Below are positions 24,401 to 49,799 of a DNA stretch of 64,000 nucleotides, piece by piece; the stretch's first letter is position 1, and each line of letters starts with the position of its first letter. Under the pieces are notes generated by a model. The model did not search any database. It was given only the letters and a program-made list of their open reading frames with translations, and was not told the origin of the DNA. Source of the stretch: Siphonodentalium dalli (taxonomy: Eukaryota > Mollusca > Scaphopoda > Gadilida > Siphonodentaliidae); contig CP136061.1 in the NCBI GenBank assembly GCA_032622095.1, positions 196,462,935-196,526,934 on the forward strand, in the 5' to 3' direction. Made by a program: the position numbers and the translations under genes.

Positions 24401-27400
24401 AACATAATATTTATAATTGTTTAGATGAACTTTTGTGAGAGATAAATATTTGCTTTGAAAATATGAGACATAGGACACAATTAACCCATAGCCACGGCAA
24501 CTGTCGTTAAACTATCTCAAACTTCAAGTTAATTGACTTCCAAGTACAATCCCCGGACATTTTCAACATCGAGGATCGATGTTGAAACAAAACAAAGACG
24601 TGTTAATTTGATACTACATGTGGTACACAACATTGGTTTATATTTCACTCAAATCAGATTCAAATGTAATATTCGGCGTTTGAACTTATATGTTAGTAGG
24701 CGTTTGGTGTCTGATTCTTTGCCAGTGTCATTCGTGTGAACATCGAATGTTCCGCCTTGTTCGACTGTTTTCATTGAACAAAATACAAAATATGGAAATT
24801 AAGCCAAGTCACTACAGTATTCTTATTGTTTCTCACATAGTGTTAATGTTATTTAGGTTGTCCCATTGTGGATATACATGATTGATTGTATATGAACAGT
24901 GTAAACGTGGTCAGAGAAGATATTGTTTCGTGGTCGCTTCTGTGTCAACAACATTTTTGCAGGCGTATTTTAAAATAATTATATTTAAACACGCATGAAT
25001 TCGACCTAGAAGCGATTAGATACTGGAGCTCAGCGCTATATTAGCACCGTTATTATTGTTATTATTAGAACTTTCACGTAACAGTCGCCTTTGACGTAAG
25101 ACGTTTTAAGAAGATGTTATTAGTTACTGACAAATAAAACCTGGAATTATGAAATACCTGAATCACAATAATAGGCGCAAGTGATAAAAAGAATTACCTT
25201 CCAGAAGAAATTCCGTTAAACGCTTGTTCTAGATAGTGGTATCCGACCACTTTTGGCATTTGGTCGCTCCACTGTATATATCAGTCAGGTACCCACGTAA
25301 TTCGTAGTGCATAGCCATGCACTGAACGGAACAAAACTTCAGTTTTCAAAACATGTATCAATATTTTGTTTCCTACAGGTGCAATCGTGGGCTGTGTTGT
25401 CGCAGCGTTTGTGATTGTTTGCATCACTGTGCTTGTTGTATTTCGTCGAAGGTTAGTGGTGATGTTTAGATTGGTAACGTCAGCTTCAAGAATATATATC
25501 TGTATTTGTGAATGTCTGTGTTATATATATAGTAAGGGGTACCATCCAGATGGCTCAATATGGGTTCTAATAGGGTGATTTTTACGAGGAAGATTATGGT
25601 GTAGGTTACAATTTTTCCAAAAACGACGTTGTTCGTGTCAGAGCCAGAAAAAGGGGAGGGGAAACAAAATGGATGACATTATTTTGTTGCCGATTTCCAC
25701 CAAATTTAAAAATAATCATCTCCATGGTATGAGTAGTCTAATTGGTGTGGTTTGAAGTTGGCAGAAGTGGCGACGTTCGAGTCAGGGTTTGGGAAGGGGA
25801 GGGGCACCAACATTGAAAACAAATACAATAGCGCCGATTTCCAACAATTTGATACATGACCTTTCTTCTCCATGATACAAGGATTCTAATCATGTGGTTT
25901 AAAGACACCAAATTGGTACCGTTTAGGTCATTTAGGTCAGAGATGAAGGGTCACTAAATTTTATAAAATGTGTTAGTCGCCGATATCCACCAGATTTATA
26001 TATTGCCATTGCCATGGTATGAGGAGTCTATTTATCTGGTTTAAATATGTCAAAATTGGTCACGTTCTAGTCAGGGTTGGGGGAATGGGGTACCATTTGA
26101 TAAAACAATATTTTAGCGACCAAATTGATACAAATTCTTATCTATGATACGCGGAAAATAACCGCGTGGTTTAAATACGCCAAATTGGTGCCGTTTGGGT
26201 TAGAGGGGGATGGGGGCACTAAATTTGATAAAAATGTGTTTAGCGCCGATGTTACTAAACTTATATGTATTCATCTACATGACATGAGCGGTCTAATTAT
26301 GTGGTTTGACGATGTAAAAATGGCGCCGATCGAGTCAGATTGATACATATTCTTCCTCATGATACGCGGAAAACGTGTGGTTTACAGACGGAATATAATT
26401 GTATTGTTTAAAGATGCCAAATTGGTGCTGTTTGGGACAGGGATTAGGCGGAGAGGGGCACGGACATTGATAAGATTTCCACATATTTATATATAGTCAT
26501 GCATCTCCATCACACAGTGTACGAGAAATATAATGATGTGGTGTAGAGAAACATAATTCGGCCTATTCGAGTCAGTGATGGGGAGGGGCACTAAAAGTAC
26601 ATGGAAAATATGTGGCGCCGAATATCGTACACTTAAGTATAACCGATTGATTCTAATGGTATGGGCATACATTTGGCATCATAGGGGCAGGGAATGGGGA
26701 CAGGAGGGCACCAGCATATCTGGATGAAACATTTTATCGTCAATTACTACCAACAGTAGATATACATGTAGGCATCCCCATAAGTCTAATGGTGTGGTTC
26801 CAAGTTGGCAGAGAAATGACAGGGTCAGGCCGTAATTTGCTCTAAATTTCAACATTCGTGTTTGCTATATTTTCCAAATATATCAGCAGCCTATATATTG
26901 GACAAACGAGCACAATATTCTATTAACTCATCGCGGATACAGTTTTAAAGAGATTTTGGAGTTCAAAATTCACAACCTCTAAAATTCTGACCGACCGAAT
27001 TAAGTCGTATGAACACTTATATCTTCTCACATGTCATATCTCTATATGTGAACGGAACCACGGCATTTATAGTGAGCTAGCAAAACATGGTACATGACTC
27101 ATATATGCTATCGTTTTTGTTTTATTTATTTATATATATGTAAATTAATAAAACAGTAAGTTATCACTTTGATTTGAGTATCTGGCTGCCATTTTAGAGA
27201 AATTTATGATGCATGACTGACACTGAGTGACGTTGGGTGGGGTGCTATGAACACCAGCATGGCCAAAAACCGTATTGGTTACGAAATTTCCGCTAAATTG
27301 GTATTAGTTATTTGCATTATGCGAGGAATCTATTTACATGTGTGGTTTGAAGATGCCAAAATAGCACATTCTGAGTTAGGAGGGGTCGCGGTACAATTGA

Positions 27401-30400
27401 TAAAAACATAATTGCCAATAGAAAATAGAGAATGTTTGGTATTACTTTTTAAAGGCAAACTGTGTTTCAAATTAGTTTGATAATGTGACAATCACGTACC
27501 TTGTTGCCGAGAACCATGTCGATAGTACTATTTAAAAAAAGAAGATAATGTCTGAAGTATGCGCATAAAGTTCTTCCCTATTCGCGGGACGAACTGAATG
27601 CGATAAACAAATGGCACTCATTCCGACAAGGTGAGCCACTGTTTATAATCCATATATGTGGATGACATTTTGTGATGCCCCTCTGGGTATAACATTTATG
27701 AGAACACTTTGAGCAAGAGTATTCTGTATTCCCACCGTAGTCCACATATCAGAGTTCCACATCGCTTTAACATGGGCAACGCCGGGTCACCCTGCTCGTA
27801 GATGTTATCTTCAGCCGACGGCGAGATCTGAAGCATACAATATTATTGTCTAGATTATATGTGACCAACATATCATCGCGTAAATATGTTCATATTGGAC
27901 CTACGTATTCACATGTGATCATATTGGGCGTATTTGATTCTGATATAAAACGATAGTGGACTCTATACTCGTTATTTCGTATTATGACCCGGACCAAAAT
28001 GAAAATTACGCATTATAAAGTGCGTATATCTGGTAAGTCGATTCAGGTGAACAGAGTTTAATTGAGATATAAATAATTCCGATAATTGAAATAAGTTAGA
28101 TATAAGCTTATTTTTCAGGAGAATAGGCTGATGTGGCCGCTATTTGGGCGATACAAATCTCTTGCGTAATTTGGTGATTGTCTTGACATTATTGTAGATC
28201 AACATCAGTGGATATATTTTCTCGCCATTTATGAAATGTTGTATGTCGATGCTTAAAGGGCGACGTTGACGTTCCCAATCTAAACATAAACTCCGATTTA
28301 TTTATACCAAATGCAAGATCTGGTAACATCATCGGCCGAATTCTGGTCCCTGGTCTAGACCAGGGTTTCATGTAAACCATAGTCTAGACCAGGCCGAAAC
28401 CACGGTGATCGCCATGTGTTACCCAGCTTCCAGGCGAGTAAGCTGGGATTATTGGTCAGCACTGGTCCGTATTTTCGTCTTTTTGAAACTCAGGTTTACG
28501 TAAACCAAGGTTTGCCTTCTTATTGTCATTCAAGCCTTTGTCGGTCTGTTCATAATTCGAACCATGTGGTAACGTACAAGTTCTGGTAACAGAAACATAT
28601 GTATTTTTTGGAAGCATTTATCTTTATGTTAACCAAATAGGAATTGTGTTTTATTGATATGCCGTGTAGAAGAAAGATTATAATTATATATGAACTGGAC
28701 AAAATGTAATATAATCGATAATTATGTGTGTTATAGGTAATAGTCTACAACTGAGACCTAGTACCCCCCTGGTCTGAGATTTTTGTATAAACCGAGACTT
28801 GAACCTGAGACGAGAATACCTTTTTCTGTTTTCGCAGTAACGATACAGATTGGTAATTTGATTGTAAATCATGCGTGCGTTTATCTGGCTTTACAGTGGA
28901 GTTTTATTTATAACACCCTTGCCTTGTTTGAAAGCATATTACCGTTAGATGGATTAAGTCAGATTTTCGTGCTATTATTTATAATATGTTATCGATGGGT
29001 TTGGTTGACACGGATAAATAGGGAATGATAGTAGTTTTGCAATCGGAACGTAATCCGCATTGGATGGGGGTGTCTTTCGTTCCGTGTTTCTGAAATGAAT
29101 TGAGGTCGGAGCTAGTTTTGATAGTACTAATTCATCATTTGAGAATAAATTATTGCTGGACTGGATATACAATATAACAGCAAAAATTATATTAAGTCAG
29201 AACGAAAAATTGTGGTTCAAAATAAGGAAATGTCCGATTAAATTGAATTAAATTAAATTAAATGCATGGGACTCCTGCTCTTGATTAATGATTTATTTGG
29301 TCCAGTTTCTTAAGCCTTGACATTTCAAATTGGTTTATTTGTCATAATTTATCTTTAAACATGGATTTGGAAACAAATTACATGGCAATGGAAGTATCTG
29401 CTACTCCTATCGGGAGTGTGATACAACGCACCCATCTGGATTTTTTCCAATACCCCCACCCCCCACCCATCCCACACCTCCCTCCCACCGTTGTGACCAT
29501 TACATTTTCTGGAAAATAATTTTCAATAACTTCAATCACGGCGATAGTTATTTAGAATCTTTCTAAATTTTCAACTTATTGCAAATTCCCAAGTCCGCGA
29601 AATTACGTTGCACATGTCCGGGGTCGGTATTTCTACACACAGCGGAGTGTTTCTCGGTGAATTTACTCTCTGCGTAGACTTTCCTCCACCCGTAAAACTG
29701 ACTTCGTGACATCCGCATAGGGGTGATAAATCCGCACCACCCCTGTCCCGTGATCCCTGTCGAACGGCGACAGCATACAGATACCGCTATACAACACGGA
29801 TATAAGCCGCTTTCACGTGCTCAGGTTTGGAGACACCAACATATCAATCTCGATGCAGCGCTCAGCATGCTTTTGTCCATAGATTGTCGTTGATTGTACA
29901 ACAATGCGCCGATCCCAGCTTGCGACCAGGTGGTTTCGCGAAACCAAGTCCTGACATGGAACACCGTGATTATTAGGGTGGTCTAGACCTGAGACCAGAA
30001 TTCAGCCGCATATGTATGGTTTATGTATATGCTTTCCTGATGATGCGCCCCAATTCAATTTCAATTTATTCACTCAACTCATTAAGTGTGATACAACATG
30101 CAGAGCATGGATGGAATACATTGATCAGTGTATTTCATATAGGCGAAAAACGTCAAAGCGGTGGACAGTAACAATTTAATTTAATAAACAGCGGATTGAG
30201 AACAACCCATGGTAGTTCAAATGTCGGATTTTAATGTATGCCTCACGATTCACGTTTTTTTTAAATATTTTTTTTATAATCAGTAAAGACATGTTTTTCT
30301 AAGTTTGTCTTTGCTTACAGTTAAACAGTTCGTTTAATTTGATATTATTTACTCTACAATGATAATATACAGTTGTCGCCCGCGATTGAGTGAGACACGG

Positions 30401-33400
30401 AGTTTTGTGGCCCACTCTCTACCTGGAATATCACCGGATGAGGGCCCTCAGGCCCGAGTGTGATATTCCAGGTCGAGAGCGGGGACAAATCCCCGTGTTT
30501 CACGAAAACAAGGGTGACAACAATTGCTGTTTTGTTATCTGACAAAGGAGTACAAACGCAACTCCTTAATCACTGACATGCCTAATTGTACGCGTATATT
30601 CTTTAGTCCAGTTAGAAGAGTTAATTTTATGTTGGAATCCTCGATTATTAGAAAATAAAACTTCCAAAGTTTGGATCAGTGAACGCATCCATCATTTGAG
30701 CAGCTATTTTCCTGGCAGTTTGCCGGTCGCATTGTGCTATGCGGCGAAATGTTTGGTTTCGTTATTAATTAGCGTAGACGTGTTAATTTCAAGAACGCTA
30801 AATGTGAAACTAACAAGTGGTGCAAAAGAAATTAACATCTGTTACAGATTGTTACGAAACATAAGGAAAATTATTCTTGTGAATTCGGAGGAATGTCTAG
30901 CCGAAAGGAAATTGTCAACTGATATACAATAAAGAGTGGCTATTTGAACTGCATAGAGCTCAGTACAGAAACGTATTTGTAACGTACGTACATCGTGGGT
31001 GCAATTGTATGCATTATACAATGGAAAGTTCCATAATTCTGTGTTCTTTCTGGCTGAGGGTGCGTCACATTTGTTATTTCCACAATTGTTACTCGCTCAG
31101 CGATGAGACGACTGGCACACAGAGAACCACGAATTACTCAACAATTAAAATTGTCAGCCACCGCTCCCTTAAATACTCCCAAAACACTCCTTTTATGTAC
31201 CCCACCGTTTCGTAACAATCGAGAAATGTGGTGTTTGATAATTCACACAAGTATTGTTTTGAGTTTGCAAATAAAATGCGTTGTGCACAAAGGATGTTAC
31301 GACTGAGATAAGACCGTTCTATTGTGTAAGGACCCTAACTGGCCTTTTATATCAATACCGTGGAACAAACATATACTAATTATTATGCAATTAATGTCTA
31401 ATGCAGCTAATTACACAACTAAGCTCTGAAGTTCAAATATCCGCGTTTTACTTTATATATCAATTGTCAATGTTCCTTTCGGCTCTAAATATATATTCCT
31501 CCGACTCATATCCTGTCACAGAACAGTGTTCTGTAAATTTCTTTTGCACAACCAAAATAGGTTAATTTCACATGTTTACGTCTTTAAAATTGACACATCT
31601 ACCTAATTGAAAACGAAGCAGCTGAACGAAGCGGAAAATTTCGTCGCATCGGTACGCTAGTTGTAAATTGCTTTACTCCTCTTTCCGTCAACCGATTCTA
31701 ACCATTCCACCAGCAAAATTACTGGAATATAACGGCCTCAATGTTAGACGTTTTTGGCGCCATTTTCAATCACCAAAATTTTCAAGTGATAAATACCATA
31801 TCTAAACCAGGGGTAACTTTATTTTCAAATTGAAATTGAAAAATTTAAAACTGAAATTGACATTTTACTTCCATGGCAGTGCTTTATAATTGTTTGACAT
31901 GCGTATGAATTACTATTAAAGCAACTTCATAATGACATTTCTGGCGTGCACCGAAAGCGACATAATCGATATTATTCACGCACCGAAATGACAAAATGTA
32001 ACATAATGTCACATGTTTTGTCGCGTTCGGCGTGCGACTAATGTCGCATGTTTTGTCGCTTTAGGCGCACAACAGAAGCGCCATTAGAAAGTGGCCCTAA
32101 TAGTATATGCATACATTCTATATTCAATATTGGCTTCAACAGGTTTTTCCACTGCATCGCCTTTTGCCGTAGTTAATTTCGAGGACTGAGTTAACAACAC
32201 CCAACACCATATTTCAGTTACTAATGTGTGTACGGTTTATTAAACAAGCTGACAGACATTCGTGATAGCATCATTAGTTAAACAAAATCATATAAACATC
32301 ACATGAAAAATGCAGCTTAGCCGTGAACAGTCGGACGCAGTATAATTGATCACGTTTGATCATGTTGCTATAACTATCTTCAATGTTTCAATCCAACTAT
32401 CTGTGGCTGTTATACTGATACCGTTATGATACATGTACATATATACGGATGTGATGTGCACTTACTAGTATGAATAAATTCAGGATGTGCACATGAGTGT
32501 CTGGACACTTTCACGCCTGTGACTGGACACTTTCATAACGAAACAAGTACCGGTGTGTCAATTCAAATGTTTTACATTTACATACATGTGAGTGATAAGT
32601 GTGATAGCCCTGTTCCTCTGTCTTTAAATGAGAGCCCCGATTCGTATGATTTAGAATGATCGAAAAAACTATTACCCGTAATTTAAAATCTTGCTTGAAA
32701 TTTATTATTTTAAACTATAGATGCAGTTAGTTGGTCTGTGATCATTCAGCCATGCATCAACATTACATCTGTGTTTCCATGGCTTATAGATATACACACA
32801 ACGCATTCTCAGTCATTCAGCATTATGTTGCATACATGTATGTGTGTGTGGGCCTACTGGCTATATGTACATGTACATATGTCAATGGCTGTACCGTTAT
32901 TGCATGTTTGCCTCAGATGAAATAACATATTTGAAGTATTGAATGAATCAAGCAGTATTCAACAAAGACCAAATACATAGATTACCAACTGAATAATTGT
33001 CATATTATAGTGAGCTTATTAATTATGTGGAACCTCATTTTGACCAATGTATTGTCCATCAATTGGGGTGAATGCGACCAAGCCTTGTTTCCGAAAACAA
33101 CGGGGCCTTATCGGTAGAGCGTAACATTATGGAGGAAAATGTTACTACACGGACCATTGGTCTTAAAGGCACGTGAGGCCTTTGTTGTCGAAAATATTCA
33201 TATTTGTTCCAATCACCGTAAACAGAAAAAACATTAAAACGCATACAGTTTCGTTCATATATACCATGACTATCGCGTAAACAGCATCCTATCATAAAGA
33301 TCTACTATATTTTACATAAGCAAGAGCCTGATTGTGTTACAGAAGACAGCATAGTGTTACTGGCTAATCACACACAAATGATATACACGCTCTTTATTAG

Positions 33401-35188
33401 TTCCATATCAGGAATTCAGCAACAAAGAACGTTCTCTATGATTACCATCATAATATAAACAAACACCAGGAAAGTAACTTTTTATGCTTTTGTTTACATA
33501 ACAATGGTCAAACATATGACAATAACATACTGTTTATGCGATATTTCTTATTTGTATACGGACAAAGTCTGTCTACATTTTAATATTCTTTCTGTTTGTG
33601 GCGGTTTTTGACCGGTGGAAATATTTTCGCAGCACACACACTGCCAAGACCAACCGTACCTTTAAACCACATGGCATACACCAATAATTTTATTTATGGA
33701 CGTGTGATTAAAATAACCGCAAGAGAGCACTCAGAGTAGGTGTTTGCGCCATTCTGTGTCGATCGAATTTAACTTAACTGCTAAATAATGGTATACTGTG
33801 GTATAGGGAAATACAGTCTATACTGTAAATTTTGCAGTATAACTTTTAAATCTATGGTGCACAGGGGCGTGTCGCTAAACGAGTACAATTTCAATTAAAA
33901 CATGTAATACTTAAACAACACGCCACTTTAAAACCCCATCGCTATTCATATGTATGTATAGCGAAGAGGTTTTTAATGTGGCGCGATCATTTTAACTATA
34001 TATATTTATTAATTTATATTTTACTTCGTTTTATCGACACGCCCTGTGCTGCGATGTAGGAACATATACAGTGTACTGATTATTGCACGGTATATTTACT
34101 GGGGGTAACTCTACTTTCGGTATTTTACTGTTAAATTTTACAGCCTATATTTTATGAAGGCATGGGATCGTCTGCGGGCCATCGGGTTGTCAGCCTTGTC
34201 TGACTGATTTAAAGGTGTAAGATGTCTGGTTTATAAAGTTGACCTTAATTACATACACATTCATAAATTTGGTCGATTATTTCAGACATTCAGACAAATT
34301 TTAATCCCCGTGCAGTCCCTGCAGGGAAAAGCATAATATCACAATTTGGTACTCCATCGTACCAGTACAGGTTCCTGGACAGGTACTCTGGAGGACACAG
34401 ACAGGTACTCTACAGTTCCTGACCATGTACTCTGGATTACTTGGATAGGTACTTCAGAGTACCTGGGCAGGTTATCCATACAGTACATGGCTATTTGGTA
34501 CTCCAGATTACTCGGCTCATCGACATGTACTCCAGAGTACACGGCAGGTACTTCACATAGTACCTGGATATCTGGTACTCCTGGACAGGCACTCTGTGGA
34601 TTACCTGGACAGACACTCCCGAGTATCAACTCGGGACAAGTATAGTACCTTCGTGGTCACCAAAGGGAACCTGGGATTTTAAGAGTTAGGTTCATAAGTT
34701 ACACTATAGCCAATTAGATGAAATATACTCGGGACTGAAGTCTATCGGAAATGACATCTGTTACAAATAACAATTATATTATACTGAACACACTACGGTA
34801 CATATACATTGTAATTATATATTTGTTTTCCATTTCAAGGATCTGCGTTCGATGTGCAACACTGCGACAATCGACAAAAGACTCTCCTCGAGGTGGACAA
34901 GATTATTTAACAGTTTGTGAGACATCAGGCCAGGACAATAAACATTTGTCAAATGCAAAACAGTCAGCAGCAAATGCAACAGATCCTCAAATATTAAAAT
35001 CAAACAACTATGATTATATATCTGTCGACTACCAGAACACACTCCATGCAACGGCAGAACAAGATACGAGCGCTGGATATGAAGTACCAAGAGATTTGAA
35101 CCGTGGTCCAGCCCACGACGATAATCATTTGAAAGGTGCAACACAGTCGTCACCAAATGCAACCGATCCTCAAATGTGTGGATTATAA
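5483..35188 (+). CDS. MAM-domain type I transmembrane receptor with tyrosine-motif tail (5'-partial, six exons)
   Basis: Joined exons are 5483-5742, 14193-14280, 14895-15191, 23228-23344, 25379-25451 and 34840-35188, about 394 codons plus stop. All junctions are GT-AG and phases agree throughout (entry 1, then 0, 1, 1, 1, 2). Order: most of a MAM domain, a ten-cysteine module, a Ser/Thr-rich stalk, a 20-22 residue transmembrane segment ending in RRR, and a cytoplasmic tail with DYLTV, YDYISVDY and GYEVP. MAM domains mediate extracellular adhesion or ligand contact; the tail suggests SH2-adaptor signalling after phosphorylation. No phosphatase or kinase domain follows. Signal peptide and first part of MAM are upstream of the window. 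Introns are 8450, 614, 8036, 2034 and 9388 bp and full of mobile elements. The exact family is not recognised; the architecture is seen, the signalling role is inferred. Confidence 0.85.
5743..7447. other. Receptor intron 1, first part: no gene seen
   Basis: Contains a (TA)n tract at 6455-6480 and a direct duplication with 45-bp period at about 7311-7400 (the unit contains GGAATAGATTATATATAGAG). Nothing else recognisable. Confidence 0.6.
7490..7830. repeat. Subterminal repeats of about 85 bp with AAACACTGTTTA-type inverted words
   Basis: Successive degenerate units contain CAGTGTTTATAT, AAACATGTCACAGTGTTTTA and TAATAAACACTCCAT, repeated at about 7568, 7632 and 7700. Many words are self-complementary. 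A related shorter block lies at 10680-10930 on the other side of the element. Confidence 0.7.
7930..10230. repeat. Tandem duplication, two copies of about 1.1 kb (period 1191 bp)
   Basis: Copy 1 (7930-about 9080) and copy 2 (9122-about 10230) are nearly identical over their length. For example, ACGGCTCTGTTTTGAGAAC occurs at 7934 and 9125, and GATTCTATCTCCATTACTT follows in both at the same offset. No open frame of note is conserved, so this is not obviously a gene duplication. The copies are separated by the short block with CGGGGAAGTCGGTCTTGCG, which recurs after copy 2 at about 10645. Confidence 0.85.
10231..10640. other. Insertion after the second 1.1-kb copy, with repeated TTTGGCTAA words
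   Basis: This block has no counterpart after copy 1. It opens with several TTTGGCTAA / AATTAGCCAA words in both orientations (10255-10335). No coding potential seen. It probably inserted after the duplication. Confidence 0.45.
10964..12690. other. Receptor intron 1, middle part: no gene seen
   Basis: Unique-looking AT-rich DNA. Features are poly-G runs at 11467-11480, 12444-12455 and 12611-12620, and a small inverted repeat GGCACATCCACCC / GGGTGGATGTGCC at about 11659-11690. Short open frames here have no domain features. Confidence 0.55.
12700..13268 (-). pseudogene. LINE (non-LTR retrotransposon) ORF2 C-terminal remnant
   Basis: The minus-strand frame at 12864-13268 (134 aa) shows the pattern found after the RT in many LINE ORF2 proteins: SKLSYVLYATIH, WIRYVRNLL, a W-x-x-x-L-x-x-S segment, EEYLS, then LMKFRTQNHHLPIE. 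It stops, but the expected zinc-binding tail continues in another frame at about 12700-12860 (C-x2-C in SCTFCSNG, then GDEYHVMLIC). So a small indel breaks the frame near 12860. Upstream RT and endonuclease are missing. It sits antisense in receptor intron 1. Confidence 0.7.
13270..14192. other. Receptor intron 1, last part: no gene seen
   Basis: No repeat family or domain recognised. The polypyrimidine/T-rich run TTCTTTATTTAG at the end forms the acceptor of the next exon. Confidence 0.55.
14193..14280 (+). CDS. Receptor exon B: end of MAM domain
   Basis: The acceptor is TTATTTAG and the donor is GTACGTGC. It enters in phase 0 and leaves in phase 1. It encodes ISIHGVRGQGNLG followed by DIAIDDLSISPDAC, the diagnostic C-terminal MAM signature (x-G-V-R-G-x-x-x-x-G-D-I-A-I-D-D-x-S-x-x-x-x-x-C). 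Joining to exon A in phase restores a continuous MAM domain. Confidence 0.93.
14895..15191 (+). CDS. Receptor exon C: ten-cysteine extracellular module
   Basis: The acceptor is TTTGTAACAG and the donor is GTACGTAT. It is a symmetric phase 1-1 exon of 297 nt (99 codons), the form typical of shuffled extracellular modules. The translation has ten cysteines (KC, AC, TC, VCG, AC, IC, KC, HC, FC, KC) and no hydrophobic segment. NVTC and KNTTL are possible N-glycosylation sites. The spacing does not match EGF, LDLa, Ig, CUB or SRCR. A distant resemblance of the first half to SUEL/galactose-lectin modules (ACANGQVLQV) is too weak to call. Confidence 0.88.
15192..16790. other. Receptor intron 3, first part: no gene seen
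   Basis: AT-rich, with an (AC)n tract near 15725-15740. Two overlapping open frames around 15808-16321 lack any domain feature and are probably chance. No repeat family recognised. Confidence 0.5.
16795..21300. repeat. Higher-order tandem repeat: 211-bp hairpin units alternating with a 0.5-1.5 kb block
   Basis: The 211-bp unit begins TTATACTTCCATGGTGTAAC at 16803, 17014 (cut short), 18424, 18635, 18846 and 20536. The adjacent units at 18424-18846 are exactly 211 bp apart. Each starts with an inverted repeat, TATACTTCCATGG / CCAAGGAAGTATA around TGTAA. Between groups lies a second block, starting near TTATTATACTTRAC at about 17216, 19055 and 20750. It contains shared words such as CATCGAAAATTG and internal subunits of about 300 bp ending in CAGTATTGTGGGTCTGGGG. 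The pattern is block + n x 211 bp repeated two and a half times, suggesting unequal exchange or an element with internal satellites. Confidence 0.8.
17054..17213 (+). repeat. Dispersed short repeat (copy 1 of 2)
   Basis: It begins TTTAGAAATGTCAATGCAAG and ends TTCCATGGAATCTGACC..CTAGTTGT. A second copy lies at 22674-22822 in the same orientation at roughly 85 percent identity by eye. Here it interrupts a 211-bp unit, so it inserted after that repeat formed. Class unknown. Confidence 0.65.
21301..21990. other. Receptor intron 3: no gene seen
   Basis: Unassigned sequence between the tandem repeat and the short retroelement-like repeats. No domain or repeat recognised. Confidence 0.5.
22020..22412 (+). 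repeat. RTE/SINE-like short repeat ending in (ACAG)n and AATATATATT
   Basis: Two internal direct repeats (GATTTGACC..TCCAAAACACTCC at about 22156 and 22286) each run into ATCAAATTTCGTGGAAATCCGTC-type words. They end in TTTTCCCGGCCATACC, ACAGACAAACAGACAG and an AT tail. Words of this kind are common at 3' ends of short RTE-related elements in invertebrates. Boundaries approximate. Confidence 0.45.
22413..22672 (+). mobile_element. RTE-derived SINE-like element
   Basis: It starts at AGACTAGCCGATGAGCCCG, passes through CGTTGTCCGGGCTATTC and the characteristic CCAAGTTTCGTCCCGATCGG, and ends in a (CATACAAA)n tract and ATATATAT tail. This is the layout of short non-autonomous RTE-related elements. 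No coding sequence. Confidence 0.6.
22674..22822 (+). repeat. Dispersed short repeat (copy 2 of 2)
   Basis: Second copy of the repeat described at 17054-17213, directly abutting the SINE-like element. It has the same ends, with several indels between copies. Confidence 0.65.
22823..23227. other. Receptor intron 3, end: no gene seen
   Basis: No repeat recognised. It ends with the acceptor TTTCCCCAG of the stalk exon. Confidence 0.5.
23228..23344 (+). CDS. Receptor exon D: Ser/Thr-rich stalk
   Basis: The acceptor is GTTTCCCCAG and the donor is G|GTAAAG. It is a symmetric phase 1-1 exon of 117 nt (39 codons). The translation is rich in Thr, Ser, Val and Glu with no cysteine (for example TTTQVSAYTDSTTN, ESSEVSQSINT), a typical O-glycosylated juxtamembrane stalk. 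The donor abuts a MITE (separate entry). Confidence 0.85.
23349..23593. mobile_element. Palindromic MITE, PIF/Harbinger-like, flanked by TAA
   Basis: A 245-bp near-perfect hairpin. Its ends are AGCTGCTTTCACA and the exact inverse TGTGAAAGCAGCT, each flanked by TAA (23346-23348 and 23594-23596), a 3-bp duplication of the TWA type used by PIF/Harbinger. The arms extend about 115 bp, including ACGTTTCAAACCATACATAT and its inverse. The left TAA is also bases +2 to +4 of the splice donor of exon D, so the element begins at intron position +5. Confidence 0.85.
23597..25378. other. Receptor intron 4, remainder: no gene seen
   Basis: Contains C-rich runs at about 23748 and 24136 and an ATGGCTGCC..GGCCATGTTGG motif pair near 23900-23922. 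No domain or known repeat recognised. Confidence 0.5.
25379..25451 (+). CDS. Receptor exon E: transmembrane segment
   Basis: The acceptor is TTTCCTACAG and the donor is AAG|GTTAGT. It enters in phase 1 and leaves in phase 2 (73 nt). It encodes GAIVGCVVAAFVIVCITVLV followed by VF and arginines: about 22 hydrophobic residues with a small-residue start and a basic stop-transfer end, giving an extracellular N-terminus and cytoplasmic C-terminus. Confidence 0.88.
25487..27440 (-). mobile_element. Element with tandem ~145-bp units (pearl/Helentron-like array), minus orientation
   Basis: It starts 35 bp after the donor of the transmembrane exon with ATATCTGTATTTGTGAATGTC (the inverse of the (GACA)n end of the array at 54.7-56.8 kb). 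It then runs through at least eight degenerate units containing GTGGTTTAAAGAYRCCAAATTGG, GAGGGGCAC and GCGCCGATTTCCACC, near 25750, 25897, 26037, 26168, 26302, 26406, 26540 and 27340. Core tandem repeats next to a short microsatellite are the layout described for bivalve pearl elements. The link is by structure, not by a database match. Confidence 0.65.
27441..28320. other. Receptor intron 5: no gene seen
   Basis: No repeat or exon recognised. Confidence 0.5.
28320..28520. repeat. Palindrome-rich block with CCCTGGTCTAGACCAGGG
   Basis: An 18-bp perfect palindrome (28348-28365) is followed by a second TCTAGACCAGG (about 28383) and by GGTTTACGTAAACC (about 28492). The longer block CTAGACCAGGGACCAGAATTC is shared with about 3008-3028 in inverse orientation and, more diverged, with 29981-30004. 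Confidence 0.65.
28521..30372. other. Receptor intron 5: no gene seen, one diverged CTAGACC repeat copy at its end
   Basis: Holds a (TTAAA)n tail-like run at about 29240-29262, a C-rich tract (29453-29490) and a diverged copy of the GTGGTCTAGACC repeat at about 29970-30004. No coding region supported. Confidence 0.5.
30373..30520. mobile_element. Hairpin MITE (148 bp)
   Basis: The ends TTGTCGCCC and GGGTGACAA are inverse with one mismatch. The two arms pair over about 70 bp, including CTGGAATATCAC and its inverse GTGATATTCCAG around a GC-rich centre. No clear target duplication. Confidence 0.7.
30521..33162. other. Receptor intron 5: no gene seen
   Basis: Contains an inverted-repeat patch at 31943-32072 (GCACCGAAAGCGACATAA against TTTTGTCGCTTTAGGCGCAC). 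No domain-bearing frame or known repeat recognised elsewhere. Confidence 0.5.
33167..33661 (+). mobile_element. TTAA-flanked foldback MITE, copy A
   Basis: A 495-bp element with ends AGGCACGTGAGGCC and (inverse) AGGTACGGTTTGG-like sequence, flanked on both sides by TTAA (33163-33166, 33662-33665). Both halves are imperfect inverted copies (about 150 bp each). Same family as the elements at 45698, 49938, 51200 and 51709. Confidence 0.85.
33862..34046. mobile_element. Hairpin MITE with CAGGGGCGTGTCG ends (hAT-like termini)
   Basis: The ends CAGGGGCGTGTCG and CGACACGCCCTG are inverse. The centre CGCTATTCATATGTATGTATAG is flanked by a further inverted pair (CGCCACTTTAAAACC / GGTTTTTAATGTGGCG). 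CAGGG(G) termini are usual in hAT elements, but an 8-bp target duplication is not clear here (ATGGTGCA against TGCTGCGA). Confidence 0.6.
34345..34640. repeat. Degenerate minisatellite of GGTACTC / GAGTACCTGGACAG words
   Basis: About nine degenerate units of roughly 30 bp built from TGGTACTCC, ACAGGTACTCTGGA, AGAGTACCTGG and GTACCTGGATA, with frequent inverted pairs (GTACTC/GAGTAC). Open frames in both strands across it are products of the repeat. Confidence 0.65.
34840..35188 (+). CDS. Receptor exon F: cytoplasmic tail with tyrosine motifs, ends at TAA 35186-35188
   Basis: The acceptor is CCATTTCAAG, entered in phase 2 (AG|G gives Arg). It encodes a hydrophilic tail of about 115 residues. 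Tyrosine motifs are QDYLTV (YxxV), NYDYISVDY (YxxV within a tyrosine cluster) and GYEVP (YxxP, Crk/Nck-SH2-like). From about 34934 the coding sequence is built of tandem units of about 62-65 codons (NATDPQ, NNYDYISVDY, EQDTSxGYEVPRDL, NHGPAxDD). The stop falls inside the second unit. No enzyme domain. Signalling through SH2 adaptors is inferred from motifs only. Confidence 0.88.
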
Positions 35189-35389
35189 TCTAATAACTAT
35201 GACTATATATCTGTCGACTATATGAGCCAAAACACACTCCATGCAACGGAAGAACAAGATACGAGCTCTGGATATGAAGTTCCAAGAGATTTGAACCATG
35301 GTCCAGCCCAGGACGATAATCATTCGAACACATGGAAAGAACAAGATACGAGCTATGTAAATGAAGTTTCAAGAGATTTCGTCTCCTAA
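35189..35389 (+). other. In-frame continuation of the tail repeat beyond the stop (66 codons)
   Basis: Immediately after TAA the same frame goes on for 66 codons to TAA 35387-35389. It repeats NNYDYISVDY, EQDTSSGYEVPRDL and then a truncated third unit with SYVNEV (YxNx, Grb2-SH2-like). At the stop, repeat 1 has TTA AAA TCA and repeat 2 has TTA TAA TCT, so one A-to-T change explains it. It could be lost coding sequence, a readthrough extension, an RNA-edited stop, or an allele or assembly error. Confidence 0.75.
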
Positions 35390-35870
35390 AGGCGAAACAA
35401 ATATCAAATCTCGAGATGTACATAACTTTCTGTTGTAACAGTGGCCAGAAAGAGAAAACCGGCGGTTTCATTCGTATATAGCTAGCTACATTATATACAA
35501 ACATTATATACAAAGGAAACTATTTTCAAAAACTTCTATCATTGACTCGGATGGCACCATTAGTAAATTGGTATATACTCAGCACACCCGAATGTGCAGT
35601 TTGAAAATTTCTTTGAATTTTCACTCACCGGTGTCGTAAATTTCGCATTACATATACCAGTAAAACCGTGGAACAGATCATAATTAATGTAGGATTTACT
35701 GACATCAAACAAGCGATTGAATAAACTCTGGCAAATCCTTCCACAATGTTCAGAACAAGATAGGAACATATATTTCTAATAGTGTAGCGCAAATCAGTAA
35801 AGCCTTCCCGAAAGCCAAATTTTTTTTTCAACTCTTAAATTTCAACGAGAATTTGATGAAAGACCAAAAC
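35390..35870. other. Probable receptor 3' UTR and flank
   Basis: No gene. A canonical AATAAA lies at 35720-35725, within plausible 3'-UTR distance of the stop. Confidence 0.4.
35720..35725 (+). promoter_or_regulatory. Candidate poly(A) signal of the receptor gene
   Basis: First AATAAA downstream of the last receptor exon. It lies before the decayed Penelope-like element. Position only; no transcript evidence. Confidence 0.3.
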
Positions 35871-35879
35871 AACTAATTC

Positions 35880-37240
35880 CAACTTCAACTCCACGGTGAA
35901 GAACATTAGAGATAAAAGTAATTTCACAGCAATTTCCTCTTTGTCGGCAAACCAAATTAATAAATTAATTATATTAATTACATTAATAATTTGGGTTCAA
36001 AATCTCCTACCAAGCTCTAGCATAACATATTGCATAAACCTTTGAACTAATAACGTCGGCAAACAGATTAGAAGTTAGAGATTTAGGATAACGGACAGAA
36101 ATTGTCAACCTGCATCCGAGTTTAACTTTGGCCAAAAACCACATCTCTACTCAAACTGGGTTTAACTTTCATTTACGGAATCGTTTAGGGTTCAGACGAG
36201 GAGGAATTCAAAATTCTTCTGAAACTAGATGAAATCAGGATTCCAATGCAGTATCCCTTTTTAACAGGAAGTTTGCGTTAGCTATTTTCTTCCATAATAT
36301 GAATGGCATTAATGCCACTATATTCAAACATATTGATCATGTAATACCCTTAAAATTTGCAAGGAGGTTGAAGCTGGAAAGTCAACTTCCCTCGCAACCC
36401 TCAGAACAAGCAACGAGCAATTAAGGTGTTACGCAACATACCATAACGACCAGTAGGTTCAGATTGTGCATCAGAAAGCTATCATATCTCAGAACACATT
36501 GATTCTGTTCTTCAACCTTTAGAATGTATGCATCCGTCATCTATCACAGAGACATGTCATTTTTTATTACGTTTGAAGTCTGCATGGTTTCAGTCCACAA
36601 GTATACAATTGTAATCACTTGGGATATTGCTAGGTTGTTCACATCAATGCCAGTTAAAGCAGGCATGCGATCAATCGAACCATTTGAAATATATCCGGAC
36701 CCGAATAGACCCACATCGGAAGTATTGCAACTGTTGTAAATTTACCTTAAAGGCAATGATTTTGAATTTAATTATGAATAATGATTTCAAATCCAGGGTG
36801 TCGCAATGGACAAACAGTTCGTTTCCAGCTTGGCGACAATCTCTGCTGCGAAATGGGATAGAGGCGCTTTATCCCAGTGTGACAGAAAACTTTGATTTAA
36901 TTATATATCAACTCATTCGATGGCGACAACAAATAAGAATCTAAGGCTTCAACTATTTTAAGGGCCGCCGTTTCCAAGACAAGGGTACTTAGCCACCAAA
37001 GATATCTTCGAGGCAACTGATACCCATGCCTTTTTGCACAAAGGCTCATTTTCTCATGTATTTATTAATGGCCTCATAAAATCTCAAATCATCTACTTTC
37101 TCAGAATTTGTTCAGATTCACATGATCTTAATAAGGCTTGTAACACAATCTTTCAATCTCTCATTCATCAAAGACTATACTCAATACGCCAACTCAGTAA
37201 AAATAAGTCTATGACTATGATTATTTATTCATAACTCATT
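35880..37240 (+). pseudogene. Decayed Penelope-like retroelement (reverse transcriptase)
   Basis: Translations in shifting + frames give the Penelope-like order: SDCASESYHISEHIDSVLQP and MHPS (36450-36540), WDIARLFTSMPVKAGMRSIE (36618-36690), EVLQLL-x-IYLKGNDFEF then FQIQGVAM (36715-36812), AKWD (about 36857), and then THAFLHKGSF, NGLIKSQII, FLRICSDSHDLNKACNTIFQ (37020-37160). Frames are broken by many stops and indels, and no GIY-YIG endonuclease was recognised. It is inserted shortly after the receptor gene in the same orientation. Long dead by appearance. Confidence 0.75.
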
Positions 37241-37398
37241 GAAATAATATATACAAATTATCTATATATACACAGTGTAATATTATAACATACAATGAAT
37301 ATAACTACACATGTAATAATAATTTGATTTTATGTAGGTTTTGTCTTGTTAACTCTAAACACCTGTTTCTATAAATAATATTATAATTCGTTCATCGT

Positions 37399-37690
37399 TC
37401 ATCGCTCTATTTGTGATGTGATATATGAAGTACAAACATGTGGATGAGGCCAGCGCAGAACCATGATTATTGTTTGTTGTTTATCCAAGAAGTTTTCAAA
37501 TGAATTTGGTAACTGGTCGTGAAAGCAATCATGAGCAAGGAGATTTGAATGCAGAGTATAGTTATCATTGAATTTCAAAATGTCCATAGTTTTAAATATC
37601 GGATCTGTGTGACTATTATATTTTTTGTTTATTATGTGCATTGATTTTTTCTGAAGTTTGAATACTCTATCACTTTTATTCGAGTATAAA
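37399..37690 (-). pseudogene. LINE ORF2 C-terminal remnant (minus strand)
   Basis: The minus-strand frame reads FKLQKKSMHIINKKYNSHT then DPIFKTMDILKFND and HDQLPNSFENF, the usual sequence following the RT of Jockey/CR1-type LINEs (LQK-x-A-x-R-x-I, HT-x-P-x-F-x-x-L-x-I-L). Only this short part remains. It is convergent with the + strand LINE remnant that follows. Confidence 0.65.
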
Positions 37691-37989
37691 ATTCGTCAAG
37701 TTTGATCGACTTCACTTTCTTTTAAACAACAGCACATGAACGACCACACCTTCTCGAACGGAAACGCCAGTCACTGTAAAAATAAGCATTGCGCCATTAA
37801 CAGCAGAAAATATATTCAGAAAGGGAATTTCTTTCAGAGCGAATCCATTCGCACTCAATATATCACCAATCACCACACGGATTGCTGCTCTGCAAATGTA
37901 ATTTATCCCACAGGGTCATATGATAACAAAGAAAGGTTTGCCCGACTCACAAACTTTAATCATGAATGAACAGAAATTAGAACAGGTAG

Positions 37990-39490
37990 CCGAGACATGT
38001 TGGTCTAAACATTATGATTTCATCCATTGCAAATTTACGCTCCTTTTTTGGTCCCATAAGCGACACGTCCCTCAGACGTATATTCAATTTATCATTTACA
38101 AATGGCATTTTCCCCACATCCATGAAAACAGCCAAAGTTATACAAATTTTCAAAAATGGAGACTCGAAATTATTTAATAATTATCGACCAATAAGTATTC
38201 TACCTTCATTTTCAAAGATATTGGAAAAACTTATGTTGAAACGACTAACGTCTTTTTTTAACTAAGTTGGATCTTCTATATGAGCATCAGTACGGTTTTC
38301 GAAAATCGCATACAACAACTCAACCGATTCTACAAAAAAACTAAAACAAGTCACGGAACGAATATCGCAACAACAAGGGACTCTACATTATCAATATGTA
38401 TTGTCTTATCTAAAGCATTTGACACTATTTATCATGACACTCTGCTCTCCAAAATGCAGTCTTACAGCATAAGGGGTATATCCCTGTCTTGGTTTAGAAG
38501 CTACCTCACAAATAGACGTCAATTTGTAGATTTTAATGACCACAAATCCTCATATAAGAGCATTCCATGTGGTGTCCCACACGGATAAGTTCTTGGACCC
38601 ACAATGCTTTTTTTTATACGTCAATGACCTACCCGAAGCCACACGCCTAAATACTCTATCTTTCGCCGATGACACAACTTTATACACTTCCGATTCTAAC
38701 ATGACACGTCTTACCACTAATCAAGGTATGGGGACATGTATCACTGACCAGTAAACTTTTTAAATTACAAAAACGAGCAATACGAGTTATCTGCAGAAAA
38801 AAAGTACAACAGCCACACCAGTCCACTATTCAAATCAGAGCACATCCTAAATTTGAAGAGCTATATAAACCACACGTTTCACTATTTATACATGACTGAC
38901 ATTATAATGCACTACCAAATGCATTTACCTCATATTTCCAAACAACAAGCAGTAGAACGAAACAACGCGGTGACATCGCTTGTCAAACGCCTAAAACATC
39001 ATTTTCCGCCGTACTTCCGGTTTTTTCGTTCGTCAAAATCTGGTCTAGCCTCCACAAAAATCTAAGAAAGCTCACGTCAAGAACCATATTCAAATCTCTT
39101 TTGACCAAATCAACGTTAGAAATGTATCCGTCAAATGTCAAATGTAAGAATACCAAGTGCTATAACTGTAGACAGTTCCGTGCTAACTACAATACTGATT
39201 AATTACCCCCCACAGCCTAATCGACACTCCTGTACTCGTCTAAACTTAAATATGTGTAATTAATATATATTATATACGGACATATAAATATAACTTTATT
39301 AATATACTTGTATATTTGTTCAATGAAATCATCACCTGACTTCTCGTCAATAATTATTATTTATCTGCACTTGGAGGTGACGGGAAAACGGTCCTCGAGA
39401 CCTCGTCATCTCATGCAATATATAGTTATAAATATTGTATTGTATTTTGTATTTAGATAGATTATATTGCAGAATAAAATCATACCATAC
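37990..39490 (+). pseudogene. LINE ORF2 reverse transcriptase remnant with 3' end
   Basis: In shifting + frames: NLSFTNGIFPTSMKTAKVI and NNYRPISILPSFSKILEKL (38075-38240), then FDTIYHDTLLSK and WFRSYLTNRRQ-x-V (38400-38530), IPCGVPHG (38560-38587; motif B, now before a stop), FFYVNDLP and LSFADDT (38610-38680; catalytic ADD box). The text then jumps to KLFKLQKRAIRVI (about 38752) because several hundred bases between palm and C-terminus are deleted. The tail includes GDGGG-free 3' UTR sequence and ends near AATAAAATCATACCATACC at 39474-39495. No frame is intact. Confidence 0.75.
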
Positions 39491-39495
39491 CATAC

Positions 39496-40075
39496 GGATA
39501 CATATATACATATGCTTATTTACGAATCGGTATTCAGGTTTTGTTCATGCAGATAGACTGTTATATATATGGCACCACGCTTGCTACACGTGGGAATAAT
39601 ATGTGTTTACATTTGTGTAGTCATGCGTTGGGGAATTCCAATTTGAACTCGGAATAACCATATATGGGCGTTGTAAACCGCACTCGCACATCCATCAAAC
39701 TGCCAATAAAAAAACATTATTATAGGCCGTTTAAGGCAAATATGATATCGTGATTGGTAATGTTGTGAGTATTTATTGGCAATAAACTAATTTTGATAAC
39801 TAAATCGGCTTTTGATGAAATTATGTTGTTGTTGTTGTTGTGACTGGATGATGCGGGGGACCAACGAATCAGATTATGTATCTTTAAAGGACTTTTTCAT
39901 CTGTAGCCGAGCTTCTTGAAACCAAGGTTACCATTGAAGCATCCAGCTGTGGGGAAGAAACTGTTCAATATTTGATTATATTTGAAAACCACTTACAAGA
40001 CACCATCTATAACATCGCCGCATATGCCAATGTGCCCAGGTGAGATCCAATATAGACTTGACAGCGGCCCATGGT
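39496..40075. other. Intergenic stretch: no gene seen
   Basis: Contains a (GTT)n run at about 39824-39840. No coding or repeat family recognised. Confidence 0.5.
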
Positions 40076-40079
40076 AATT

Positions 40080-40220
40080 AGTTATTGCTCAATCCAATAT
40101 ATGTTGCCAACGTTGGATGGCTGCAGCTGTACTCATTGGAAGAATATAAAACTGTATGCGAGCTCTGTCGTCATGGTGATCCGTATGGAGTGATAGAGGA
40201 ATACGCGTTCTTTGACGAGT
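40080..40220 (+). promoter_or_regulatory. Duplicated promoter/5'-leader segment, copy 1 (TATA box 40145-40150)
   Basis: Shares ATATGTTGCCA-x-CGTTGG, CTGCAGCTG, GTCGT-x-x-TGGTGATCCG and CGTTCTTTGACGAGTTT, in order, with 47495-47616, the segment just before the signal-peptide exon at 47621. It has a clean TATAAA at 40145. After the shared CGAGTTT, however, the sequence diverges and no signal-peptide exon follows. It is probably the orphaned 5' end of a duplicated gene. Confidence 0.55.
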
Positions 40221-40470
40221 TTTAATTATATAACATGCCAGACAATAATCTAGAAAATTTCGAAATTGTTGCCGAAATAAGATTTATGTGGTACTAACCG
40301 GTACTAACTCAATGTGTAATAATTAGATGGTTAATATCCTTCTGCTAATCAGCAAACTTCAAATTCAATTGTCAATGGCGTAATTTCCATTTCGATACAA
40401 CGTCAAATGTCATAATGTCAATGCAGCAGTTAATATAGTCTGGGAGCCAAGAAAGTTTAATTTGATCTAA

Positions 40471-41857
40471 TAGTCCGGGAGCTAATAGGGGTACCCTTGC
40501 ACCCCCCCCTGGGACTTAACTTCACCCCATTTATTTTTTGTTCCTTATTATGTCCTTCAACTTTTAAGCAATGTTAACAAGAAAAAAATGTGGCCGTGTA
40601 GACTCCAGACAAGATGGCGTCCATCATGGCCGCCGTTTTTCAGACCAGACCCTAGGTCAGTTTTATGCAAATTATAGCGGGAAAATCTTGTAAAATGTAT
40701 ACAAATGTATATATTTTCGTGAAACTAAGACATAATGACACTTTTTTGGGTCAAAATTGAAACTCACCATCCAAGATGGCCGCCAAAATGGCCGCCGGAA
40801 GTTGAAAATATGACATTTTTTAACAAATATCTTCTAGATCAATTCATGCTGTTTGGAACTGGTTGAGAAATATGACTTTATTTAGTGTTGGGTATATTAA
40901 CTGATCATTGGAGCAATTAAATATGCAACTAATGGGGTCCTAGCCCCTTCTGATCCCTCAAAAATTCGATTTTATAGAACGCGGTACAAAATTTTACAAA
41001 AAATCACAATTGGGATTGTAGTCATATTTCAAAAAGAAATGAAAAGAACATTGTAATGTAAGTGAGGCATATCATTACCTATAAATATTCCAACTCTCTG
41101 GAACCAAAAATCTTACCTTGGCTCAAAATGGCTGCGAAAATGGCCGCCAAAATATGGAAAATGGTAAATATTGCCCCAGGGTGTCCTGCAATCGCTTACA
41201 AGTTGTGGTTGATGTATACAATTAGCTAATCTGTATTCTATACATTGCATACTAACATATCTGATGCACCATGGATCATTTTTACTATTGTCACCACTGA
41301 CATCACCAAAAATATGGGATTTTTCTCTCACAAACTTGACATAAATATCGGCAAAAATTCACTTTTCAGGGTTCGACCATTTGTTCAAGTAAAATGCAAC
41401 TATCTTTGGTATCAAAGGTATTTATTGTTTTGGTATATCTTAAGTGTGTCACACGGTGGTGTTTAAAGACTAAAATGCTCAAGATGGCTTCCAAATTTGT
41501 AAAAAGTTAAAAGTTAACATATCCCGAACATTATTCTCTGCGTTATCCGAAAAAGATAGCAAATTGTGACTCACTTGGTTATTTTACGTATTAGTTAATT
41601 AACTGACAAATACGTTTTATTATATTTGTCCCAGTTCCGTATGGGGCAAGACAAATTCATTTTAAAGTTGCAGTTTGGAATTTTGCGGAGAACCTCTTTT
41701 GTGATTCTGGCCATATTATTGAAAGGAAATGGGCAGAACTTTGAGACGGAACTGAGATGAACCATCATGATATGTGGGTATTCAGGCCCACTATGATACA
41801 AATTTATCAACTGGATACAGGGTGGAAGCCAAGATGGCAGCCACGGAGTTACTCTAT
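40471..41857 (+). repeat. Left arm of the foldback element
   Basis: It pairs with 44186-45565 on the opposite strand with scattered substitutions and small indels; identity is higher toward the outer end. It contains several AAGATGGC-x-x-CC / AAATGGCCGCC words. Open frames within (for example 41113-41331) have counterparts only by virtue of the repeat and no domain features. Confidence 0.85.
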
Positions 41858-44185
41858 GGTCATAGATGAGGATAATAGGTATACAGGGAGTTATTGTATT
41901 GCCATGAATGATGTGTGGGTATATAGGGAGTCCCCTGTTGGTGACGGTGGGACATATATTTATATATGTTGTGGATGTTTTATCATTGGTGGTGTTTGGG
42001 GAGTAGATGTATGATCATGGATGGCGTGTATATAACTTATGAGTGGCAAGTATGGAACTTATGAGTGGTCGTATGTGCGGGTATTGGTATATCTGGAAGG
42101 GCTCACCATTGGTATTGTGCATATGTATACCTGGATTGACTCTATGGTCATGTGTATGGCGAATAGGTATACATGTAGTGGCTGTATGGTCCATGGTTAG
42201 GTGAATATGTATACAATGAGTGACTGTATGATCGTGAATGTAGTGAATATGTATACATAGAGTGAATTTTTGGTCATGTGTCGGGTGTAGGTGTATACCT
42301 GGTGTTCATGCATGGTGACTCGTGGCTGTATCGTCATTTATGGTATGTACGGGTATAACCAAGTATGGTTGCATGATCAGGTGTACGTGTATAAAGTGGG
42401 TTACTATGTTGGCATTTATGTGGTGTTTATGTACATATGGAGTGACTTGGGTAATGGGTGGGTTGTACATGTGTATCTTGGGTGGCTATCGCTTTCCACA
42501 ATAGCTCAAGGGTATGTTAATCAATAGAGAGGTCATGTCAGAGAGTTTTCCATCTTGATGATGTTTATGTAGATGTGGGACGTTAAGCTGTATACATGTA
42601 TACATGTACACCTGACCCATGACCACGGGTGACAATACAGCCATGCGTCACAATGCAGGCACACCGGGTATACTCCTAAACATGACCCATAACCAGATAG
42701 TCACTCCTTGTATACCCATTCATCTCACCATTGGCCATAAGGTCACCCCCTGTATACCTATTCTCCAAACGCATGGTCAAATAGACAATCAATATCTACA
42801 TCAACACCATAAAGTCATTCCGGTATACATATGCACCTCACCAATGGCCATATAGCCACTCGCTTCATACACACACCCTCACCCATGTCACCTGGTATAC
42901 TCCTTCACCTGACCAATGGCCATATAGTCACCCCGTGTACCTTTTCAAAACATTCATACATCATCATGGCCAATTCTTGTATACATATTCACCTCAACAT
43001 TGGACATGTCACTCCCTGTATCACTATTTGTCACACCATAGCAGAATAGCCACTCAAGATATACTAATACACCCCATCCATGTCAGTATAGTCACTCCAT
43101 GTATGCATATGCACCTCATCCATGGCCATATAGCCAATCGCTATATACTCATATCCCTCGCCCATGACAATAAAGCAACACGTGTGTATGCTGGTATAAC
43201 CTACACATGACCATACCGCCACGAGTCACCAAACAGGAACACCAGGTATACGCCTGACACATGACCATTTAGTCACCCCTGTATAGATGTTCATTACATT
43301 TGTGACCATACAGTCACAACTTGTATACCTACATGTACTCATATCACCATTAACAATACAGTCATTACTTGTATACCTATTCGACACACATAGTCAATTA
43401 ACCACTCGATATACATAATCAGCCCACCCTAGACTATAGATTCACTCCAGGTATACATGTAAACCTCACTAATGGCCATTCATCCCTTCCAGATATACAA
43501 AAAAAACGCACACACGACCACTCAAACACTCCATACTTGCATATACACCTCACACATGACAATTCAGCAATTCACTGCATAATCATACACGCCATCCATG
43601 ATAATACAGCTCAGCCGTATACACCCACAAATGATAATACATCCACGAGATATATAAATATACATCCCACCATTACCACACGGACACTCCCTATATACCC
43701 ACACCCTCGATAATGTCCACCCAGCTTACTCCAGGTATTCATATTCAATCATGACCGTACAGTCATTCCATGTATACCTGTACACATTACCCGTAACCAT
43801 AAAATCACTCCCTATTTATCCACACACCCCATCCATGATCATACAGACAACACATGCACATACCACCCATGACCTTACAGTCACTCCATATATACATAAT
43901 CAACACATAGATGACCATGTAGCTATATCCATACACCACACCAATGACCATACAGGTACACCGGTTGCACCCGTACTGAATATACACAATCATACACCAT
44001 AGAGTCACTCCATGCATACCGATTGACCTCACACCTGACCATGACCTCTCCATGTATACCTAGATGCATCTTACCATGGACAACCCACTCATAACCATAT
44101 AGTCACTCATTGTATACCTACTCACATCAGTCATGACATACAATAACTCCCTGTATACCTATTCACCTCACATATTATCATAGAG
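41858..44185. repeat. Spacer satellite of the foldback, ~55-bp units, orientation flips near 42560-42610
   Basis: Left part (41858-about 42540) has units of the type GGTATAC..GAGTGACTGTATGGTCATG. Right part (about 42610-44185) has the inverse, CATGACCATACAGTCACTCC..GTATACC, repeated some thirty times with drift. The flip point contains GTATACATGTATACATGTAC. Many short open frames in both strands (for example around 42619-43210 and 43751-44053) are by-products of the repeat. Confidence 0.8.
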
Positions 44186-45565: not shown

Positions 45566-45697
45566 TATTGAGTACGAAAGGTTGTCTATGCCTGAATTGT
45601 CAGGACTGGACTGACGGAACAAGCCCGAAATTTAAGTTCCACAATGACATTATAAAGGGGCCAGGTGGCCCAACAGAAACCGAAAGTCATTTGTTAA

Positions 45698-46189
45698 AGG
45701 CACGTGAGGCCTTAATTGTCGGAAATATTCATATTTGTTCCAAACACCGTAAACAGAAAAACATTAAAACGCATACAGTTTCGTTCATATATACCATTTA
45801 CCATCGCGTAAACAGCATGTTACAAATACCTACTATATTTTACCTAAGCAAGAGCCTGATTGGGTTACAGAGGACGGCACAATGCTACTGGCTCATCACA
45901 CACAAATGGCATAAACGCTCTTTATTAGTTCCATATCAGGAATTCACCAACAAAGAACGCTCTTTATATTTACCATCATAATATAAACAAACACCAGAAA
46001 AATTACTTTTTATGCTTTTGTTTACATAACAATGGTTAAACATATGAGAATAACATACTGTTTATGCGATATTTCTTATTTATATACGGACAAAGTCTGT
46101 CTACATTTTGATGTTCTTTCTGTTTGTGGCGGTTTTTGACGGGTGGAAATATTTTCACAGGATACCCACCGCCAAGGCCAACCGTACCT
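45698..46189 (+). mobile_element. TTAA-flanked foldback MITE, copy B
   Basis: 492 bp, left TTAA at 45694-45697; right flank TGAA (46190-46193) looks like a mutated TTAA. Same ends and internal sequence as copy A. Confidence 0.85.
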
Positions 46190-46193
46190 TGAA

Positions 46194-47144: not shown

Positions 47145-47287
47145 GAAATAAATACAAGGTGTATCGGTGTGTATGGTCAAGTTGTACCACAAAAAACTTA
47201 TTGTAGGACTCCGCTACGCGTCATCCTACAATCAGTTTTTTGTGGTACAACTTGACCATACACACCTCTACACCGTGTATTTATTTC
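47145..47287. mobile_element. Hairpin MITE with TTGTACCACAAAAAA arms
   Basis: A 143-bp near-perfect palindrome. GAAATAAATACA pairs with TGTATTTATTTC, and GTGTATGGTCAAGTTGTACC with its inverse. The centre TGTAGGACTCCGCTACGCG is itself self-complementary. A diverged relative lies at 52739-52866. Confidence 0.75.
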
Positions 47288-49795: not shown

Positions 49796-49799
49796 GACC

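Follow-up and report, generated by a model that had tools for sequence, protein, structure and literature searches.

Why does a receptor-like reading frame stop within a tandem repeat, and then remain open for 66 further codons? The question is raised by a stretch of 64,000 nucleotides from the scaphopod Siphonodentalium dalli (GenBank assembly GCA_032622095.1, contig CP136061.1, positions 196,462,935 to 196,526,934 of the forward strand), hereafter the window, in which the predicted last exon of a putative cell-surface receptor gene carries an in-frame TAA in the second unit of its tail repeat. An earlier note on this DNA had proposed a recent nonsense allele, programmed readthrough, or A-to-I editing of UAA. 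The first of these is the best supported, although an allele and a second locus are not distinguished by the data: with a probability of about 0.85, one receptor copy appears to have undergone a recent nonsense substitution, so that its product would be truncated and the frame past the stop untranslated. In what follows, W is the copy in the window, and A, B, C, D and E are five paralogous places in the same assembly, located on contigs referred to as C1 and C3.

The stop codon and its counterparts in sister copies

The tail of W is made up of the following features, given in window coordinates:

34840 to 35389, plus strand: last exon (predicted), encoding the cytoplasmic tail; acceptor TTTCAAG, with acceptor and frame common to A and B
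34994 to 35185, plus strand: tail repeat unit 1 and the beginning of unit 2, up to the stop
35186 to 35188, plus strand: in-frame TAA; GAA in A and three further paralogues
35189 to 35386, plus strand: 66 in-frame codons past the stop, probably untranslated; homologous to the open tails of A and B
35387 to 35389, plus strand: terminal stop codon TAA, common to A and B

Unit 1 reads TTA AAA TCA at 34994-35002 and unit 2 reads TTA TAA TCT at 35183-35191. This confirms the stop first noticed in the tandem repeat, as well as the 66 open codons that lead from it to the closing TAA, and both the conserved second half (SNNYDYISVDY, containing the NNYDYISVDY reported earlier, and GYEVPRDL) and a partial third unit are seen in W. 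Two codons, TGT GGA, stand ahead of TTA in unit 2 of W and are missing from its unit 1; because A carries them in both units, six bases have probably been lost in frame from unit 1 of W, and this deletion is one of the other copy-specific differences between the W and A exons.

When the assembly that holds the window (2.23 Gb in 9 contigs, representing one genome of a single species) was searched at protein level, with all 13 candidates scored, nine matches were returned, corresponding to the window and five further places:

C1 near 198.7177 Mb, minus strand: copy A, an inverted copy about 2.2 Mb from the window; tail open for 182 codons
C1 near 198.927 Mb: copy B
C1 near 196.3527 Mb: copy C
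C3 near 71.164 Mb: copy D
C1 near 196.387 Mb: copy E

All five frames are open through the place that matches the W stop. The codon ahead of the SNNYDYI-type motif was read in nine repeat-unit instances picked up by a motif script: TAA occurs in unit 2 of W alone (1 of 9), the sister copies all having a sense codon at the homologous place: GAA in unit 2 of A, unit 2 of B, C and D, and GAT in E. The first units have AAA (W), AAG (A) and ACA (B). From 69 bases before the site to 23 bases after it, W is identical to A at every other base. Because A and three more paralogues carry GAA, the simplest history would be a single G-to-T substitution at 35186 on the W branch, which would have made a TAA out of the Glu codon in the second unit, and the AAA-to-TAA route implied by the earlier comparison of the two units is unlikely. 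Judged from these copies, the frame past the stop is a real homologous tail and not a chance open frame, since it is encoded by those paralogues whose frame continues through this place.

Counted from the same start, the tail has 182 residues in A, 131 in B and about 245-250 in C, D and E. The W product would have a tail of 115 residues instead of about 182, keeping one full repeat unit, whereas the partial third unit and the greater part of the second would be lost. The tail of W contains repeated tyrosine motifs (YDYI, YISV, YEVP), and a pattern of our own, Y-x-x-hydrophobic/Pro, counts four of them up to the stop in W versus seven in A. The likely product of W, its protein and expression being deduced from the DNA, is a truncated receptor with four of A's seven tyrosine motifs. 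The idea that the stop could give rise to two forms of the receptor, differing in how many docking sites they have, thus holds at the DNA level for these putative motifs, but the source would be two gene copies or alleles rather than two readings of one gene. A stop codon in a last exon is not expected to elicit nonsense-mediated decay, and with its stop in the predicted last exon the W mRNA would escape it. As a separate observation, the long-tailed related receptors (L008:6473-7255, L010:5400-6155 and the C3 copy) have 7-9 tyrosine motifs by the same pattern, and the distal tail part of the receptors of about 245-250 residues has no match in the W tail.

Constraint beyond the stop and the predicted receptor

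To what extent does the frame past the stop still behave as coding sequence? Gapped codons and the stop itself being excluded, W and A differ before the stop by 4 nonsynonymous and 3 synonymous substitutions (nonsynonymous proportion, pN, 0.015; synonymous proportion, pS, 0.038), and past it by 6 and 1 (pN 0.040, pS 0.027), all of which are small counts. Polarisation by hand, using B, C, D and other repeat units, assigns to the W branch 2 nonsynonymous changes, 2 synonymous changes and one in-frame deletion before the stop, and 3 nonsynonymous and 1 synonymous changes past it; there, 2 more nonsynonymous changes of W are undatable (they lie in codons lacking in A), and one difference is assignable to either copy. 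As counted, these changes lend no support to constraint past the stop, and they are too few to decide on relaxation.

The silent-looking differences between repeat units had been taken as a sign of coding constraint until recently. Over about 40 codons past the stop, 6 synonymous and 4 nonsynonymous changes separate units 1 and 2 of W (pS 0.24, pN 0.042), so both the differences and the constraint are real, but "until recently" does not follow, as units 1 and 2 of A give a similar picture (9 synonymous and 7 nonsynonymous changes; pN 0.076, pS 0.36). Because the same pattern is found in A, the unit-to-unit differences would largely predate the stop and be uninformative on its aftermath, the silent ones having probably arisen largely while both units were translated.

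How long such a frame stays open by chance was simulated in 20000 runs starting from the window's own 198 bases (66 codons), at a rate based on the local noncoding divergence round the tail exon (77 differences in 2815 bases, 2.7%). No new stop appeared in 89% of runs at half the local divergence, 79% at the full value and 51% at three times that value; neither stop nor frameshift appeared in 67%, 45% and 10%, respectively. If the stop is recent, an open frame beyond it is unsurprising and requires no function: the frame would be open since the change is recent, and not since it is translated. The case is mostly one of an ordinary nonsense change, with the caution that a frame still open behind a recent stop is to be expected and does not point to readthrough.

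The tail exon belongs to a predicted gene with three exon-like stretches upstream:

14895 to 15191, plus strand: Cys-rich ectodomain exon (predicted), phase 1 to 1; AG/GT borders, phases fitting the next exons, protein identical in A; presumably part of the same gene
23228 to 23344, plus strand: Ser/Thr-rich stalk exon (predicted), phase 1 to 1; AG/GT borders, protein identical in A
25379 to 25451, plus strand: transmembrane exon (predicted), hydrophobic; AG/GT borders, phase fitting stalk and tail

These stretches are open in W and joined in phase with the tail exon, and together with their flanks they show 99.5-99.7% identity between W and A. The transmembrane exon is 66% identical to a stretch 5' of the tail of D, with one stop within the match. 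On this model, the gene is predicted to encode a single-pass receptor of the animal cell-surface type, and to have been duplicated. An old pseudogene was considered and set aside, the three upstream stretches found being open. A Pfam scan of seven window frames, including the Cys-rich, stalk and tail frames, gave nothing at the cut-off; two longer paralogue tails matched no Pfam family either, and the W tail of 115 residues, searched against PDB sequences, gave nothing below E 0.5. Elsewhere in the window, a tandem array with a 211-base unit in 3.1 copies (18421-19065) lies between the predicted Cys-rich and stalk exons, and an 824-codon open frame on the minus strand (391-2865) resembles a retroelement polyprotein, which we take to be perhaps DIRS-like.

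Several points weigh against a recent nonsense change in a gene of this kind. The model lacks the 5' end of the gene, no exons having been identified before 14895. Copy A, without the stop, also has 2 or 3 nonsynonymous and 0 synonymous changes of its own in the stretch past the site (by hand), and because these look like those of W and the counts are small, a W-specific relaxation is not demonstrated. W has no frameshift past the stop, its indels relative to A being in frame (3 and 9 bases), and a much older stop without constraint is harder to explain, because the frame survives in 10% of the runs at three times the local divergence. The same holds for a base or assembly error, weighed below.

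The inverted copy, the diverged block and other explanations

From position 297 to about 56,977, the window matches C1 at about 198.697-198.757 Mb in reverse orientation, some insertions apart, at a distance of about 2.2 Mb. This second copy could be either a recent inverted duplication or the result of two haplotypes assembled in one chromosome. On the left, the non-repeat part of a 3-kb probe (C1 196.433-196.435 Mb) matched its own place only, bar a 219-base inverted match inside the probe (23 of 1284 first-look candidates scored), and the inverted copy probably extends less than 28 kb beyond the window; on the other side, the fetched copy stops soon after its match to position 56,977 or so of the window, where the comparison of W and A ends. 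Divergence was scored in 55 bins of 1 kb (bin 29 being unaligned) over the aligned parts 297-17918, 17946-28332, 30009-48088, 48134-49941 and 50431-55886, the rest being omitted, including a 97.9% match at 56139-56977. One block stands apart:

28000 to 36000, no strand assigned: raised divergence between W and the inverted copy; 3.05% versus 0.45% in the other aligned parts

Within it, 190 of 6230 aligned bases differ, versus 209 of 46945 outside, which is about seven times as many per base, and its seven scored bins are the seven most divergent of the 55. The block begins inside the intron that precedes the tail exon and ends shortly past the exon, in the near 3' flank. At the point matching window position 32560, within this intron, A carries an additional 5.9 kb or so; the translated introns of A also include a frame, not mapped exactly, that is presumably a LINE-type reverse transcriptase.

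Are the two tails then older than the genes that carry them? The rival explanation that survives best holds that the long GAA and short TAA tails are two old receptor versions residing on this 8-kb block, selectively kept since differing numbers of docking sites are useful, either as alleles or through exchange between copies. Besides the locally raised divergence over the tail exon, it is consistent with the variation of tail length among the paralogues, and with the outcome of DNA searches in which, among the candidates scored, no place besides A came as close. For one noncoding piece of the block (40 of 920 first-look candidates scored), the long matches besides A reach 68-77%; for a second (40 of 2311 scored), the others reach 72-84% and form a repeat family, and among the candidates scored neither piece has a place as close as A. 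When the 3' half of the exon was searched, with all 5 candidates scored, the next best place after A was B, at 88% over a stretch of 193 bases and 94% over one of 139, with C and D at 81-87%. A donor may nevertheless sit among the candidates left unscored, and one recombination event with a diverged haplotype would raise divergence without any selection. Nor is raised divergence unique to the block: other parts of the inverted pair include a pair of 4-kb pieces at 92.5-95.4%, another at 99% over 495 of 4001 bases, and a third at 77-88% in five pieces, and these diverged parts weaken any special claim for the tail. The tail versions may thus be older than their surroundings, or one of them may have come by recombination; put in terms of the block, either a diverged tail segment recombined into one copy, or the haplotypes have an old split at the tail. 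Old versions kept by selection are, on balance, unlikely. If the idea were true, a single nucleotide would decide how many docking sites a repeat array offers, and if the tail versions were old alleles they would provide a clean, naturally occurring example in which receptor signalling depends on how many tyrosine motifs are repeated. Of the whole finding, it is the divergence block that deserves attention at the population level.

A base or assembly error in W is a yet more doubtful explanation. A single base is involved, and the region is present twice at about 99.5% identity outside 28-36 kb, which invites mis-joined reads. On the other hand, the W exon has several more copy-specific differences, including the six-base deletion, and neither the window nor the paralogue loci examined contain N runs.

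Programmed or leaky readthrough of the TAA, which would yield some full-length receptor, has the 66 in-frame codons and their conserved motifs in its favour, but is very improbable and, as proposed earlier, not supported. The context, TTA TAA TCT, places U after UAA, and is neither the UGA CUA motif nor a known leaky context; the stop is found in only one of the nine unit instances of this one genome and is not conserved among relatives, and the changes past it are without sign of constraint. In a readthrough study, efficiency is highest for UGA, followed by UAG and UAA, a TAA control giving 0.3% (PMC12233894).

Least credible of all, and equally without support, is A-to-I editing of the UAA back to a sense codon: stop-codon editing does occur, tandem UAG stops being reportedly edited in a fungus (PMC4817773), but here one edited A would give UGA or UAG, still a stop, and both edited would give UGG (Trp), so that by the genetic code neither Glu nor Lys could be restored, and the paralogues have an ordinary GAA in their DNA.

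Comparison with known systems

Genes with UGA CUA readthrough resemble W in having an open frame after the stop. They differ in that the stop of W is UAA with no CUA motif, is absent in relatives, and is followed by a frame with no sign of constraint.

A likeness in form is found in KIR-type multigene immune receptors, whose family members, like the copies described here, differ in tail length, partly via premature stops. In owl-monkey KIR alleles, short tails result from two one-base deletions that alter splicing and lead to a premature stop (PMC3819253). The W tail differs in that a single substitution would have acted within a last-exon repeat unit and some motifs are kept, and the likeness drawn here is one of tail form.

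With recent nonsense changes in one copy of a duplicated gene, W shares one substitution, an open sister copy and a frame that is still open past the stop. What sets W apart from such cases is the block around its exon, where divergence is far higher than over most of the aligned duplication.

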